From Kineococcus rhizosphaerae (lineage in GTDB: Bacteria; Actinomycetota; Actinomycetes; Actinomycetales; Kineococcaceae), in the NCBI RefSeq assembly GCF_003002055.1, contig NZ_PVZF01000001.1, positions 372,001-436,000 of the forward strand: a stretch of DNA of 64,000 bases, written 5' to 3'. Made by a program: the position numbers and the translations under genes. Under the pieces are notes generated by a model. The model did not search any database and was not told the origin of the DNA. It worked only from the letters and a program-made list of their open reading frames with translations. Of the stretch, positions 18,746 to 44,141 are shown piece by piece (positions within the stretch are counted from its first letter, which is position 1; every line of letters starts with the position of its first letter).

Positions 18746-18775
18746 TTGACACGAATCCCCCGTCTCCCCTACCGT
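18746..18775 (+). promoter_or_regulatory. Promoter of the first tyrosine recombinase (leaderless)
   Basis: TTGACA at 18746-18751, an 18-nt spacer and TACCGT at 18770-18775; the ATG follows after 6 nt. The transcript would start at or next to the start codon. Confidence 0.7.
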
Positions 18776-18781
18776 CTAGCC

Positions 18782-19798
18782 ATGACTCCCCCGTCGTCCG
18801 GGGTTCCCGAGGTCGTCACCTCCTCGACGCCGCTGCTCGCCGCTCTGAGCGCCTACGACGTCGCCCGGCTCCCCCGCAAGGAATCCCCCCACACCACCGA
18901 CGCCCGCCGGCGCGACGTCGCGGCGCTGCTGCCCCGGCTGCAGCGCACCGACGGCGCCGAACTCCTCGTCGCCGACCTGACGGTCCGCGCGCTGCGCACG
19001 GCCTTCGCCGACTTCTCCCTCGACCACGCCCGCAGTTCCATCGCGCGGTGCTGGTCGACGTGGAACGGGTTCTGCTCGTTCCTGCTGGCCGAGGACGCGC
19101 TGGCGGGCAACCCGATGGGGGGCGTGCAGCGGCCGCGACCCGAACGCCACGGCCCCAAACCCCTGCGCGGCGAACGCACCGCCGAGCTCCTGCTGACCTC
19201 CGTCGCGACGCGACGGCCGGGGGCCCGCGACCCGTGGCCCGAGCGGGACCTGGCGGTCGTGGCGACGTTGCTGGTCAGCGGGATCCGCAGCGCCGAACTG
19301 CTCGGCCTGCGGGTGGGCGACCTGGCCGGTGCCGCCGGGGACCACCGGCTGCACGTCCTGGGCAAGGGCAACGCCGAACGCAGCGTCCCGGTCGAGGCGA
19401 CGCTGGCCGAGGTGCTGGGCAACTACCTCGCCTCCCGCCGGGCCCGGTTCGCCCGCCCTGCGACGCTGCCGCTGGACGCGCCCATGTTCGTCGACACCCG
19501 CGGCCGGGCCCTGACGCGCGACCAGCTGCAGTACCTGGTGCGGCAGGCCTACCGGACCGCCGGCGTCCACGACCGGGTCGCGCGCGGAGCCCTCGTGCAC
19601 GCCCTGCGGCACACCTTCGCCACCGAGGTCGTGGCCGCCGGAGCCAGCGCCGTGGAGGTCATGCGCCTGCTGGGGCACCAGAGCCTGACGACGTCGCAGC
19701 AGTACATCGACGTCGCCGCGCAGGAGCTGCGCTCGGCGGCCGCGGCCAACCGCGCCTACGCCGCGCTGCGCGACGTGCGCGAACGCGCTGACGCGTAG
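18782..19798 (+). CDS. XerC/XerD-like tyrosine recombinase, apparently intact
   Basis: A 338-residue protein with an N-terminal SAM-like core-binding domain (about residues 20-115) and a C-terminal catalytic domain. Catalytic residues are visible: Arg in LLVSGIRSAELLGLRVGDL, Lys in HVLGKGNAER, HALRHTFAT (His and second Arg), His in LLGHQSLTTSQQYI, and the Tyr nucleophile 9 residues after that His. It could act in dif-type resolution or integrate an element. It is preceded by palindromic repeats and not by phage genes. The start is fixed by the adjacent leaderless promoter. Confidence 0.9.
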   Translation: MTPPSSGVPEVVTSSTPLLAALSAYDVARLPRKESPHTTDARRRDVAALLPRLQRTDGAELLVADLTVRALRTAFADFSLDHARSSIARCWSTWNGFCSFLLAEDALAGNPMGGVQRPRPERHGPKPLRGERTAELLLTSVATRRPGARDPWPERDLAVVATLLVSGIRSAELLGLRVGDLAGAAGDHRLHVLGKGNAERSVPVEATLAEVLGNYLASRRARFARPATLPLDAPMFVDTRGRALTRDQLQYLVRQAYRTAGVHDRVARGALVHALRHTFATEVVAAGASAVEVMRLLGHQSLTTSQQYIDVAAQELRSAAAANRAYAALRDVRERADA

Positions 19799-35298: not shown

Positions 35299-37158
35299 TC
35301 AGCGCCGGTGCGTGCGTTCGGGCACCCTGCGCACCGCCCCCGTGGACGCCGACGTCGCCATCGCGGCGTAGGCGCGCAGCGCGGCCGTCAGCGGGCGGTC
35401 GCGCTGCAGCGGCTCCCAGGGCCGCTCGGAGGACTCCATCTTGGCGCGGCGCTCGGCGAGCACCTCGTCGTCGACGCGCAGGTGCAGACCGCGGGTCTCG
35501 ACGTCGATCTCGATCCGGTCCCCGTCCTCGACGAGCCCGATGAGGCCACCGGCCCACGCCTCGGGCGACACGTGCCCGATCGAGATGCCGCTGGAACCCC
35601 CCGAGAACCGCCCGTCGGTGACGAGGGCGCAGACCTTGCCCAGGCCCCGGCCCTTGATGAACGACGTCGGGTGCAGCATCTCCTGCATCCCCGGCCCACC
35701 AGCCGGTCCCTCGTAGCGGATCACCACGACGTGCCCGGGCTTCACGGCACCGGACAGGATGCCCGTGACCGCGTCCTCCTGGGACTCGAAGACGATCGCC
35801 TCGCCCTCGAAGTGGAACAGCGACGGGTCGATGCCCGCCGTCTTGACGACCGCCCCCTCGGCCGCGAGGTTCCCCTCCAGGACGGCCAGCCCGCCGTCGA
35901 CGGTGTAGGCGTGCGCGAGGTCGCGCACGCACCCGTCCTCGGCGTCCAGGTCCAGGGAGTTCCACCGGTTCTGCGTCGAGAACGCCTCCGTGGTGCGGAC
36001 ACCGCCCGGCGCGGCGTGGAACAGCTCCACGGCCACGTCGCTCGGGTTCTCGGCGCGCACGTCCCACGCGGACAGCCACGACGCGAGGTCGGGCGAGTGG
36101 ACCGTGCGCACCGACTCGTCGAGCAGTCCCGCGCGCCACAGCTCGCCGAGGATCGCGGGGATCCCCCCGGCCCGGTGCATGTCCTCCATGTGGAAGTCGG
36201 AGTTCGGGGCGACCTTCGACAGGCACGGGACACGACGGCTGATCGCGTCGATGTCGGCGAGGGTGAAGTCGAGCTCGGCCTCCTGGGCGGCGCCCAGGAT
36301 GTGCAGGACGGTGTTCGTCGACCCGCCCATCGCCACGTCGAGCGCCATGGCGTTCGAGAAGGCGGCCCGGTTGGCGATGCTGCGCGGCAGGACCGACTCG
36401 TCGTCCCCGTCGTAGTACTGCCTGGCCAGTTCCACGATCAGCGATCCGGCCCGCAGGAACAGGTCTCTGCGCGCGGCGTGCGTGGCCAGCGTGGACCCGT
36501 TGCCGGGCAGCGACAGTCCGAGGGCCTCGGTGAGGCAGTTCATGGAGTTCGCGGTGAACATCCCCGAGCAGGACCCGCAGGTCGGGCACGCGGAGCGTTC
36601 GACGGCGTCGAGGCCGTCCTGGGTGACCTGTTCCGAGGCCGACGCCGCGATCGCGGTGATGAGGTCGGTCGGGGCGTGGGCGACCCCGTCCACCACGACC
36701 GCCTTGCCGGCCTCCATCGGCCCCCCGGAGACGAAGACGACGGGGATGTTCAGCCGCAGGGCCGCCATCAGCATGCCCGGGGTGATCTTGTCGCAGTTGG
36801 AGATGCAGACCAGGGCGTCGGCCTGGTGGGCGTTCACCATGTACTCGACGGAGTCGGCGATGAGCTCGCGGCTCGGCAGCGAGTACAGCATCCCCGAGTG
36901 CCCCATCGCGATGCCGTCGTCGACGGCGATGGTGTTGAACTCCTTCGAGACCCCACCGGCCTCGGCGATCGCCCCGGCGACGAGGTCGCCCATGTCCTTC
37001 AGGTGCACGTGCCCGGGCACGAACTGGGTGTAGGAGTTGGCGATCGCGACGATGGGTTTCCCGAAGTCGCCGTCGGTCATGCCGGTGGCACGCCACAACG
37101 CGCGGGCACCGGCCATGTTCCGGCCGTGGGTCGAGGTACGGGAACGCAACGCGGGCAC
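35299..37158 (-). CDS. ilvD: Dihydroxy-acid dehydratase
   Basis: A 619-residue IlvD/Edd-family enzyme that makes the 2-keto acid precursors of valine and isoleucine. Conserved blocks are [49 protein letters not shown] (cluster Cys residues), [11 protein letters not shown] and [14 protein letters not shown] 37158 ([18 protein letters not shown]) is chosen because GGAG lies 5-8 nt upstream and it matches the usual start of long-form IlvD. There are no other ilv genes nearby. Confidence 0.95.
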
Positions 37159-37487
37159 GACTGCTCCAGGTCTGCAGGGAGGGGTGGGTCTCGCACGGGA
37201 CACCGCGGCCGATGGGCCCGCGGACAGCGTCCCGCGCGAGCGGACGACTCCCCCGGCCCCGCAGGTGCGCGGGCGAGGACGTCGTCCCGTCGGCGGCCAC
37301 CGGAGTCGCGGTGGGACCAGCCTGCGCCCCCGGGTCCGTCACGGAGTTCACCGGGAGCGGAGTCAGGATAACCCGCGTCACTCGCCCCCTTCGTCGGGGC
37401 TGTTCTCGTCTGACGCTGTGGAGCAACTTCGCGAAAAATTGTTGCTATGACTTCCAGTAACAGATCTTCCCTTGCTAGAGTTGCCTC
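37159..37487. other. ilvD upstream region and AT-rich recombinase promoter region
   Basis: No gene is supported. The left two thirds are ordinary GC-rich leader DNA for ilvD. Bases 37420-37487 are AT-rich and contain AGCAAC/GTTGCT (13-nt spacer), TGTTGCT/AGTAACA (37440-37446 and 37456-37462, one mismatch) and the first copy of a short repeat described separately. No attenuator or T-box-like structure could be recognised. Confidence 0.5.
37447..37470 (+). repeat. Repeat copy 1 upstream of the second recombinase
   Basis: This 24-nt stretch shares TCCAGTAAC and GA-n-CTTC with the copies at 38625 and 43741 (17 of 24 identities to the copy at 38625). It lies 17 nt before the recombinase start and overlaps an inverted repeat with 7-bp arms and a 9-nt spacer. 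Confidence 0.55.
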
Positions 37488-38501
37488 GTGAGCGCCACCG
37501 GTCCCGACGAGGTCCCCGCGGAACTCGCTGCAGCCCTGCTCCCCCCGCTGGACCCCCCGCCGGTCTTCGACGCGGACACCCTCAGCACCTGGTTCGCCTC
37601 CCTCGACCCGGTGCGCCGCGGGGTGCGGGCACCCGGCACCTGGCGCGCCTACGCGGTCGACCTCGCGCACTTCGCCGAGTGGTGCGCACTGCACGACCTG
37701 CAGCCGCTGCCCGCGGCGGCCGAGACGGTGGCCGACTACCTCGTCGCGCACGTCGAGAAGCTGTCCGTCGCCACCCTGCAGCGCCGGCTGGCCGCGATCG
37801 CCGTGGCGCACGGCGTCATCGGGGTCCCCTCCCCCACCGACGGCGAGCACGTCGGCCTCGTGTGGCGGGGCTTGCGCCGCGTCCACGAGCCCGGACGCCG
37901 CCGCCGCCGGGTCGACGCGCTGGAGACCAGGAACCTCGCCGACCTGGTGGCCCCGCTGACCGACACCGTCATGGACCACCGCGACCGTGCGCTGCTGGTC
38001 CTGGGCTTCGCCGGGGCCCTGCGCCGCTCGGAACTGAGCGCCCTGGAGGTCGGCGACGTCGTGGTCGAGCCCGGCCGCCTGCTCCTGACGGTCCGCGCCG
38101 CGGGCGCCCGCGCCGAACGCGTCGTGGAACTGCCTCGCGGCAAGCGCCTGGAGACGTGTCCCGTGCGGTCGTGGCGCAAGTGGGCTGAGGTGGCCCGCCT
38201 CGCCGAGGGGCCAGCGTTCCGCCGGATGACCAAGGGCGGCAAGTCGTTGCGACCGGAGCGGCTCGGCGACCGCGGGGTCGCCGAGGTCGTCAAGCGCCGG
38301 ACCCTCGACGTGGGGCTGGACCCGAGCCTGTTCTCCGGGCACAGCCTGCGGGCCGGGTTCGTGACCTCCGCCGCCCGCGCCGGCGTCCCCGGGGTGTCCA
38401 TCGCCCGGCAGACCGGTCACCGGTCGGCGGCGGCCCTGGCGGCCTGCGTGCGCGAGGAGCGGCCGTTCCCGGGCAACCCCGCTGCCCACGTGGGTCTCTG
38501 A
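37488..38501 (+). CDS. Tyrosine-recombinase-family protein with the nucleophile Tyr replaced by Cys
   Basis: A 337-residue protein with a SAM-like N-terminal domain (about 30-130) and an integrase catalytic domain. Arg I lies in FAGALRRSELSALEVGD, His285 and Arg288 in SGHSLRAGF, and His311 in QTGHRSAAAL. The residue 9 positions after His311, where family members have the Tyr nucleophile, is Cys320 (TGC, 38445-38447), and no Tyr follows before the stop. All other catalytic residues look intact, so it is either recently inactivated by one A-to-G change or has altered chemistry. Copies of a short repeat lie on both sides. Confidence 0.85.
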   Translation: MSATGPDEVPAELAAALLPPLDPPPVFDADTLSTWFASLDPVRRGVRAPGTWRAYAVDLAHFAEWCALHDLQPLPAAAETVADYLVAHVEKLSVATLQRRLAAIAVAHGVIGVPSPTDGEHVGLVWRGLRRVHEPGRRRRRVDALETRNLADLVAPLTDTVMDHRDRALLVLGFAGALRRSELSALEVGDVVVEPGRLLLTVRAAGARAERVVELPRGKRLETCPVRSWRKWAEVARLAEGPAFRRMTKGGKSLRPERLGDRGVAEVVKRRTLDVGLDPSLFSGHSLRAGFVTSAARAGVPGVSIARQTGHRSAAALAACVREERPFPGNPAAHVGL

Positions 38502-38624: not shown

Positions 38625-38648
38625 ATTGGCTCCAGTAACTGAACTTCT
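38625..38648 (+). repeat. Repeat copy 2 downstream of the second recombinase
   Basis: A 24-nt AT-rich stretch (core TCCAGTAACTGAACTTCT) that matches the copy at 43741-43764 at 22 of 24 positions. It lies in the spacer between the convergent recombinase and MoeB/ThiF genes. Confidence 0.75.
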
Positions 38649-38712: not shown

Positions 38713-39774
38713 TCAGTCGACCGGTCCCCCGGCTGCGCACCAGGCCGCGAAGCCCCCGTCGAGGTGCACGACGTCGGTGCGCCCGGTGGCGAGCACGGCC
38801 CGCAGGGCCTGCGCGGAGCGGGATCCGCGCGCGCAGTGCAGGACCACCGGACCGTCGGGCAGGGCGGCGGGGTCGGCGAGGAGCTCCCCCAGCGGCAGGG
38901 TGAGCGAGCCCGGGATGAGTCCCCGGGCGCGTTCGTCCGGTTCCCGGACGTCGACCACGACCGCCCCGGGCCTGCTGAGCAGGTCGGCGACCGTCACCGT
39001 CGGCAGGTGCTCGGGTCCGGTGCGGCGGGGGTCGGGGCGCAGCGGGAGCTCGCGCCACGTCATGGCGAGGGCGTCGTGGACGAGGACGCGGCCGAGGAGC
39101 GGGCGGCCGGCACCCGTGAGCAGCTTGACGGCCTCGGTCACCATGACGGAGGCGACGGCGGCGCAGACGCCGCCGAGGACACCGGCCTCCCCGCAGCTGG
39201 GCACCGACCCCGGTGGCGGGGCCGTCGGGAAGAGGTCCCGGTACGTGGCCCCGGCCGGGTCGAAGACGCTGACGTGCCCGTCGAAGCGCAGGACCGCACC
39301 CCACACCCACGGCCGGCCGGCGGCGACGAGGGCGTCGTTGACGAGGTACCGGGTCTCGAAGGTGTCGGAGCCGTCCAGGACGAGGTCGTAGCCGGCGACG
39401 GTCCGGGCCGCGGAGGCGCTCGTGAGCCGTTCGCGATGGCGGACGACCGTGATCGCGGGGTCGAGCCGGGCCACGGCGTCCGCGGCGCTGTCGACCTTGG
39501 CCCGCCCGACGTCGCCCGTCCCGTGCAGGACCTGCCGCTGGAGGTTGGAGGCCTCCACGACGTCGTCGTCGACCACCCCGATCGTCCCGACCCCGGCCGC
39601 GGCGAGGTACAGCAGGGCCGGGGACCCCAGGCCCCCCGCCCCGACGACCAGGACCCGTGCGGCCAGCAGGCGGCGCTGGCCCAGCTCGCCGATCTCGGGC
39701 AGCAGCAGGTGCCGCGAGTAGCGCTCGCGCTGCGCGGGAGTCAGGTCCGGTCCCGGCTCGACCAGGGGCCTCAC
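38713..39774 (-). CDS. MoeB/ThiF-type adenylyltransferase with C-terminal rhodanese (MoeZ-like)
   Basis: A 353-residue E1-like enzyme. ERYSRHLLLPEIGELGQRRL and VLVVGAGGLGSPALLYLAAA (nucleotide loop) form the adenylation domain; SNLQRQVLHGTGDVGRAKVD carries the conserved Arg/Lys. A rhodanese domain follows (about 260-353) with the persulfide Cys in VVLHCARGSRSAQAL. It would adenylate and thiolate a ThiS/MoaD/CysO-like carrier protein for sulfur transfer. The two CxxC zinc pairs of classical MoeB are not obvious. It overlaps the upstream gene by 4 nt. Confidence 0.9.
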   Translation of the reverse strand: MRPLVEPGPDLTPAQRERYSRHLLLPEIGELGQRRLLAARVLVVGAGGLGSPALLYLAAAGVGTIGVVDDDVVEASNLQRQVLHGTGDVGRAKVDSAADAVARLDPAITVVRHRERLTSASAARTVAGYDLVLDGSDTFETRYLVNDALVAAGRPWVWGAVLRFDGHVSVFDPAGATYRDLFPTAPPPGSVPSCGEAGVLGGVCAAVASVMVTEAVKLLTGAGRPLLGRVLVHDALAMTWRELPLRPDPRRTGPEHLPTVTVADLLSRPGAVVVDVREPDERARGLIPGSLTLPLGELLADPAALPDGPVVLHCARGSRSAQALRAVLATGRTDVVHLDGGFAAWCAAGGPVD

Positions 39775-40580
39775 CGGGCCTGCTCCACCGCGGCGACCCG
39801 TTCGGCCGGGCTCGCCTGCCGTTCCAGGGCGGTGCGCAGCCGGTCGGCTCCGGCCGGTACCGCGAGGCTCACGGTCGCGGGTGCGCCACCCGTGAGCCGT
39901 CGCAGGGCACGGGCCGTCGCCTCCAGGACGCCGAGGACCTCGGGGGTCGTCAGCCGCTCCAGGGACCCGGCGGGCCCGTCCAGGGCCAGGCACCCGGTCA
40001 CCGCGGAGGTCTGCCCCGTGTCGTCGACGAGGGGGACGGCCACCACGACGGCGTACTTGCCCCGGACGAGGCGGAACTCCTCCGGGCTCAGCCCCTGGCG
40101 CTCCCCCGCCGCGTCGAGGGCGGTGACGTCGCGGGCCACGACGGCTCCCGTGGCCACGCACTCGCCGACGACCCCCTTGCCCGGGGCCCAGCGCACGCCG
40201 GAGGCGACCGGGCGGCGGCGGGCCCGGACCCGGTGCACGCGGGCCAGCCGGGCAGGCCCCCACCAGGGCCGCTCGAGGCGGTAACCGGCCAGGGCCAGGT
40301 CCCGGGGGTCGGTCCCCGTGGCGTCGACCACGGCCCACAGGGCGCCGGAGAGCAGGTCGTCGTAGAGCTCGCGCGTCGCGTCGACGCGCCGGCCCCGCAC
40401 GGAGGTGACCGCTTGCAGCGCAGCGGGGACGATCGCGAGAAGGGCGGCCAGGAGCACCAGGGTCACGACGACGGCGTCTCCCGGGGCCCAGACGGCCGTG
40501 CGGTCCAGCGCCAGCCCGGCGCCCACCACGGCCGCCAGGACGGCGACGGCCACGTCGATCCAGACCCGGTCACCCCTCAC
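39771..40580 (-). CDS. Membrane protein with a GAF-like domain
   Basis: A 269-residue protein with two N-terminal membrane segments (about residues 6-24 and 32-55) and a cytoplasmic domain. Its VRWAPGKGVVGECVATGAVV and YAVVVAVPLVDDTGQTSAV are typical of GAF domains. Ligand and output are unknown. It precedes and overlaps the MoeB-like gene (GTGA). GTG 40580 is favoured because TACGGT (40587-40592 on the minus strand) lies 6 nt upstream; in-frame GTG/ATG codons at 40628-40649 are alternatives. Confidence 0.65.
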   Translation of the reverse strand: MRGDRVWIDVAVAVLAAVVGAGLALDRTAVWAPGDAVVVTLVLLAALLAIVPAALQAVTSVRGRRVDATRELYDDLLSGALWAVVDATGTDPRDLALAGYRLERPWWGPARLARVHRVRARRRPVASGVRWAPGKGVVGECVATGAVVARDVTALDAAGERQGLSPEEFRLVRGKYAVVVAVPLVDDTGQTSAVTGCLALDGPAGSLERLTTPEVLGVLEATARALRRLTGGAPATVSLAVPAGADRLRTALERQASPAERVAAVEQAR

Positions 40581-40744
40581 GGCGTCACCGTAGACGGGGC
40601 TCCCGACACGGCCGACGTCGGTCGTCACTGGTTGCACCATCAACCACACGGTACGTTCGAGGCCTTACCGCACCCACGGCCCGCCCGCACCCCCGAGCGT
40701 GTCGGTGCGGTGGGACGACCGGCCCACCCCCCCTGGACCAGACG

Positions 40745-43607: not shown

Positions 43608-44141
43608 GTCGTCGGACGCTGCGGTCCGGGGCTGTCGTTCGTCGGCCCCCGAGGGGCGGATCCGGCGCCACCTCCCTGGTTGGGGCTTCACTTCGTTCTG
43701 ATCAGGCGAGCCACAGATCGCTGACCTCTACTTCTTCCTCATTGGCTCCGGTAAGTGAACTTCTATTGTTACCCACACCAGGAACCTGCGCCGCACCCTC
43801 TCGCACACGAGGCGCCGTCGAGCACCCGCGGGCGAGGTGACGGAAGCCGAACACAGCGAGGTCCCGCCCCGTCCCCACCGAACCTGCCCCGGTCGCCCGC
43901 CGGAGGAAGCGGTCGCGGCCGTCCCCCGCTGCCGTGCGGCGGCCGCGAGGCCCTGGCGGGCGACGCCGGAGGGCAGGTGTCGCGGCGGCGCGCACGGTCC
44001 ACCACCATCGGTGAACGCCTGTGCGACCGCGCCGACGCCGACCGCCTGACGTGGGGTGGACCGGCAGCCGGTGTCCCAGAGGGCCGTGAGAGGCGGAAGG
44101 CCTGTCCGGGGGGCGTCGACGCCGCCCGGCCGGTGAGGTGC
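43608..44141. other. Spacer containing the third repeat copy
   Basis: About 530 nt with no supported gene. It is AT-richer at 43730-43780. Apart from the repeat copy, GGTAA/TTACC brackets the segment 43750-43773. The right half has gene-like GC content, but its frames match nothing. Confidence 0.4.
43741..43764 (+). repeat. Repeat copy 3
   Basis: Identical to the copy at 38625-38648 at 22 of 24 positions (core TCCGGTAAGTGAACTTCT). It lies in an intergenic AT-rich patch 5.1 kb from copy 2. Flanking sequence is not shared, which argues against duplication of a larger segment. Confidence 0.75.

Follow-up and report, generated by a model that had tools for sequence, protein, structure and literature searches.

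The Cys gene and its locus

The window analysed here is a stretch of 64,000 nucleotides (C1:372001-436000) from a 5.6-Mb genome of Kineococcus, the genus to which the radiation-resistant K. radiotolerans belongs; the genome is labelled G000 below. We identified in it an open reading frame on the forward strand (37488-38501, GTG start) whose 337-amino-acid product has a tyrosine-recombinase fold, as indicated by Pfam, an AlphaFold (AF2) model and six orthologues. The Pfam scan revealed two domains, PF00589 (Phage_integrase) and PF02899 (SAM-like). At the position of the catalytic tyrosine (Cre Y324), the sequence and the orthologue alignment place a cysteine, Cys320, encoded by TGC at 38445-38447 on the forward strand; we refer to this gene and its product as the Cys gene and the Cys protein. 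As the original prediction had stated, the cysteine lies nine residues after H311, and no tyrosine follows it.

The original prediction also held that all other catalytic positions are present, which is correct for four residues and incorrect for a fifth. Alignments to relatives and to Cre identify R179 (38022-38024; Cre R173), H285-x-x-R288 (38340-38351; Cre H289 and R292) and H311 (38418-38420; Cre W315), all on the forward strand and all invariant across the seven orthologous Cys proteins. The catalytic lysine of the beta-hairpin is missing. Nearly all relatives carry an S-K-T-D-Q hairpin, and HMMER, in an alignment with Cre, matches its Lys to K201. The Cys protein instead has RAAGARAER as its hairpin, and the profile alignment of the relatives places Gly206 (38103-38105, forward strand) at the lysine position. 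The Cys protein scored 41 and 35 bits against the XerC and XerD models, whose curated cut-offs are 335 and 330 bits.

The Cys gene is followed by a ThiF/MoeB-rhodanese gene (moeB; 38713-39774, reverse strand), recognized by locus comparison and Pfam. This neighbour is conserved, as the two genes lie side by side or close together in six genomes of a close clade. On the other side, locus comparison revealed ilvD, encoding dihydroxy-acid dehydratase (35299-37080, reverse strand), an arrangement shared by the window with G006 and G007. The locus has kept the Cys gene in G005 and G001 too, but its ilvD is broken or missing there; ilvD of G005 is fragmented (L070:5761-7075), and the best ilvD match of G001 lies elsewhere, at 67% identity. 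G005 also carries a copper-related cluster (DyP peroxidase, PCuAC, CopC and PepSY_TM; L070:8222-13951) between the Cys gene and a downstream copy of the motif described below, at a point where the window has about 124 bp. We considered the possibility that the Cys gene is a mobile element in the window and rejected it, given the constant place by moeB in the six genomes and a gene tree that fits the species tree. By these comparisons, the gene has passed down vertically and kept a single location within the close clade. Further along, ARAGORN reported a 97-nt tRNA-Arg(tcg) at 40058-40154 on the reverse strand, possibly a false call, within a predicted open reading frame (39771-40649).

Orthologues, ancestry and fold

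Orthologues of the Cys gene were found in G006, G005, G001, G007 and G003 at 75-87% identity and in G011 at 56%, with the codon TGC in all. A cysteine thus occupies position 320 in 7/7 members of this orthologous group, which spans two GTDB genera of the Kineococcaceae (56-87% identity). As the codon recurs in seven independent genomes, it is attributable neither to chance nor to sequencing error. The nearest relatives with a tyrosine are a Kineococcus homologue in G010 (54%) and a paralogue on contig C24 of the window genome (48%), both with the codon TAC. We also examined about 70 further relatives drawn from samples of the order, class and phylum and from viral contigs, a few of whose alignments stop short of residue 320. 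All those with a readable C-terminus have the tyrosine and nearly all have the lysine; among them we found no other case of a cysteine at the catalytic tyrosine position. In the comparison with close homologues that the original prediction had called for, cysteine is confined to the orthologues.

All seven Cys sequences cluster together in the phylogenetic tree (84/74), with G010 branching next and then the C24 paralogue, consistent with a single origin of the cysteine. The lysine is absent both from the Cys clade and from its sister G010. Since G010 lacks the lysine and has the tyrosine, loss of the lysine probably preceded the change from tyrosine to cysteine.

Among the six closest copies dN/dS ranges from 0.09 to 0.49, with 0.49 in one pair and values of 0.30 or below in the rest; these are approximate, having been calculated by NG86 at high GC. 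The identity of the Cys gene to its orthologues is about that of the neighbouring moeB. Together with the vertical inheritance beside moeB, these values rule out a freshly dead gene. By these sequence measures, the Cys codon is real and old and the gene is under purifying selection.

The AF2 model, built from 16 sequences, has a mean pLDDT of 85, and a Foldseek search with it returned Cre first (E 1e-14). A profile search against solved structures likewise placed Cre closest (4e-36). The two-domain Cre/Xer fold is thus predicted to be kept, with Cre of phage P1 as the closest solved structure by both sequence profile and fold. The two proteins differ at the residues discussed here, as Cre has K201 and Y324 whereas the Cys protein has G206 and C320. 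A K201A mutant of Cre has no catalytic activity, yet its sites are still synapsed, and Lys201 is likely the general acid (PMC4381057).

The C24 paralogue lies on a plasmid-like contig, among plasmid-type genes such as one for a ParA-like ATPase. It belongs to the same subfamily as the Cys protein and shares its C-terminal motif NPAA(K/H)VGL, but it has both the SKTDQ lysine and the tyrosine, which the Cys protein lacks. We consider it the useful comparison, rather than the paralogue within the window (18746-19798) on which the original prediction had relied to validate the alignment; the latter does carry a tyrosine nine residues after the histidine, but it resembles XerC and is only distantly related to the Cys protein (about 27% identity). 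An open reading frame made of repeated LGEGAHIDGGLxL-type units lies upstream of the C24 paralogue (L076:1-792). We also noted a widespread tyrosine-bearing subfamily of the class (family f36, L084-L112), whose sequence IMRQGRWRS has, like Cre, Trp in the place of H311, and a probably decayed relative with an in-frame TAG within the recombinase match (L012, G026:C286).

A single-protein search of genome contigs gave no match, and an alignment-based query returned three named Kineococcus loci. A search of one literature collection found no relevant report on a cysteine replacing the catalytic tyrosine, nor on the K. radiotolerans gene.

A 22-bp motif upstream of the Cys gene and corA

Alignment of the regions upstream of the orthologues revealed a common stretch similar to TTGGCTCCRGTAACTGAACTTC (22 bp). 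In the window, a degenerate copy in the promoter region of the Cys gene itself (37448-37469, forward strand) aligns with the copies of G006, G005, G001 and G007, has 0 mismatches to a relaxed 16-mer and is a candidate binding site. A -10-like TAGAGT (37476-37481, forward strand) stands 6 nt before the GTG start, and this sequence and the orthologue alignment suggest a leaderless-type promoter. In 5/5 readable loci (G000, G006, G005, G001 and G007) the motif stands a short way ahead of the gene start; the locus of G003 is unreadable upstream, as its contig ends within the gene. In several genomes the motif directly adjoins a TAnnnT that precedes the start codon by about 6 nt, which resembles a leaderless promoter.

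We identified two more copies in the window, both on the forward strand. One, with 0 mismatches, lies between the Cys gene and moeB (38626-38647) and has an orthologous copy in G005; the other, found by a motif scan of the window, is intergenic and has 1 mismatch (43742-43763). Both are away from obvious promoters, and the number expected by shuffles is 0.00.

Across 12 genomes of the family, the 22-mer at up to 3 mismatches has 10 matches, located only in G000, G006, G005 and G001, and a reversed-pattern control has 0. The relaxed 16-mer with 0 mismatches is present in each of the six close-clade genomes that carry the gene (in G001 by its corA copy) and was not found in G002, G004, G008, G009, G010 or G011. 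Outside the family, a search of 384 genomes gave only five matches to the 22-mer, each with 3 mismatches, and likewise five to the reversed control. The motif was not found in the relatives K. xinjiangensis and TRM81007. We also searched G007, G010 and G011 for any motif common to the regions upstream of the gene and upstream of corA; none stood clearly above shuffles in this ungapped test, which also misses the degenerate window copy.

Recombinase core sites usually consist of two inverted arms of 11-13 bp and a spacer of 6-8 bp (PMC3212892). The dyad symmetry of the motif is not significant, as 60/500 column shuffles were as good. We therefore do not favour the motif as a core site with inverted arms, and treat it as a candidate site of the Cys protein.

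A further site of the motif is the divergent region ahead of corA (Pfam CorA), where G000, G006, G005 and G001 carry it at a shared position. The corresponding site of G003 is weak, with 7 mismatches to the 22-mer and 0 to the 16-mer. The motif is therefore upstream of corA in 5/6 gene-bearing genomes of the close clade, one of them weak, and the sixth, G007, has the gene and no corA site. None of the four Kineococcus genomes without the Cys gene has the corA motif; genomes without it mostly have a shorter region upstream of corA. One of the four, G008, is the sister of the window genome (93/92, in a tree of corA, a phosphatase and a third neighbour) and has neither the Cys gene nor the corA site. 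Its empty site reflects a deletion from about window position 37373 to the moeB stop. Excision between motif copies was considered as the cause of this gene loss and rejected, as the deletion extends beyond both copies. Co-occurrence of gene and motif was assessed over the 12 family genomes, which contain one clear independent co-loss. A test on independent pairs comprised only 2 pairs, too few for significance; in most pairings both agreed with the expected direction.

Possible roles of the Cys protein

Tyrosine recombinases that act as DNA-binding regulators are known from the phage repressor MrpR and from Crypton-derived animal genes. Given the analyses presented above, we propose, with a probability of roughly 0.6, that the Cys protein is domesticated, Cre-like and non-cleaving, and that it binds the motif to regulate its own gene and corA. 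It would descend from a chromosomal Cre-like recombinase by domestication; the two residues that carry out the reaction are lost (Lys to Gly, Tyr to Cys), whereas the phosphate pocket (R-H-R-H) and, by prediction, the Cre/Xer fold persist. That the lysine and tyrosine are gone and the pocket is not suggests a protein that binds DNA but leaves it uncut. The protein may thus bind the non-palindromic 22-bp motif without cleaving it and, through the copies at both genes, may control itself and the metal-ion transporter gene corA. Conservation of the cysteine across species and the motif before both genes make a DNA-binding regulator more probable than a broken enzyme or a new cutting enzyme. Of the three alternatives named in the original prediction, a non-cleaving DNA-binding member is the best supported, as the lysine and tyrosine are lost, R/H/R/H is kept and the motif is present only with the gene. 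We infer the link between protein and motif from co-occurrence and position only. Counting against a regulator are the missing corA site of G007, the extra copies off promoters and the K. xinjiangensis and TRM81007 relatives without the motif, and the retention of R/H/R/H would be compatible with an active enzyme as well.

The working mode may resemble that of MrpR (YopR), the master repressor of the Bacillus phage SPbeta, which has the tyrosine-recombinase fold but no recombinase function, binds the recurring intergenic element SPBRE and regulates genes (PMC10516654). As judged computationally, the Cys protein likewise combines this fold with lost recombinase residues and a recurring DNA element at promoters. 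The two have lost different residues: MrpR kept Lys169 and Tyr304 and lost Arg/His (PMC10516654), whereas the Cys protein lost the lysine and tyrosine and kept R/H/R/H. Furthermore, MrpR is prophage-borne, whereas the Cys gene is chromosomal and syntenic. The profile search did not recover kinship with MrpR, as 8A0A is absent from its 25 PDB matches at E ≤ 0.001. A second parallel is offered by the Crypton-derived DUF3504 proteins ZMYM2/3/4, QRICH1, KCTD1 and WOC, which are domesticated and have lost the catalytic tyrosine, many being transcription regulators (PMC3212892). These are eukaryotic and most have also lost several of R-H-R (PMC3212892), in contrast to the bacterial Cys protein with its R/H/R/H, in which the Pfam scan found only the two domains named above and no DUF3504 domain.

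The authors of the MrpR study suspected a wider recruitment of recombinases as regulators (PMC10516654). If our proposal is correct, the Cys protein would be a chromosomal bacterial case, in which the change from tyrosine to cysteine is conserved, a tyrosine-bearing sister exists, the lysine is lost in both and a candidate operator lies by corA. The steps of domestication would then be visible within one genus, in a directly testable example.

The original prediction had also raised the possibility that the enzyme has just died. An integrase inactivated not long ago and on its way to becoming a pseudogene would agree with TGC being one transition from TAC, but we give this reading almost no credence: the cysteine is found in seven genomes of two GTDB genera, with intact frames, low dN/dS (0.09-0.49 in the six closest) and a single origin on the tree, and the conserved location and moeB-like identity point the same way. 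The third alternative was a cysteine nucleophile, which to our knowledge would be the first for the tyrosine-recombinase fold. Cys320 would then attack the 22-bp motif copies through a cysteinyl-DNA covalent intermediate, without the usual lysine general acid; the copies would be recombination sites and the copper-related cluster of G005 mobile cargo. The strict conservation of R/H/R/H and Cys fits such an enzyme, as do the direct motif copies on either side of the gene in the window (at 37448 and at 38626) and of the gene plus cargo in G005. We nevertheless regard it as very unlikely, chiefly because the lysine, the general acid in Cre, is lost too. In addition, the motif lacks the significant dyad of recombinase core sites, the G008 deletion is not bounded by motif copies and the gene is inherited vertically at one place in the close clade.

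A less distant alternative to the proposed regulator is a non-cleaving pseudo-recombinase kept for another purpose, as a partner subunit of an active recombinase or in chromosome architecture, with the motif serving as operator for a different, unrelated transcription factor by which both genes happen to be controlled. A partner role is conceivable because an active-looking paralogue with the tyrosine exists on contig C24, and an unrelated factor would be in keeping with the few genomes on which the co-occurrence of gene and motif rests. The absence of the corA motif from all four gene-less Kineococcus genomes, including the close sister G008, speaks against an unrelated factor, and we hold this alternative to be unlikely, though the most serious of those considered. 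It is improbable, to a greater degree, that the motif is a promoter or a small hitch-hiking repeat carried by chance and unrelated to the regulation of either protein. The two window copies away from clear promoters would suit such an element, but beyond the copies listed above the motif was not found elsewhere in those genomes, and in several species it precedes two unrelated genes in the same orientation and at comparable positions, with 0-3 mismatches.
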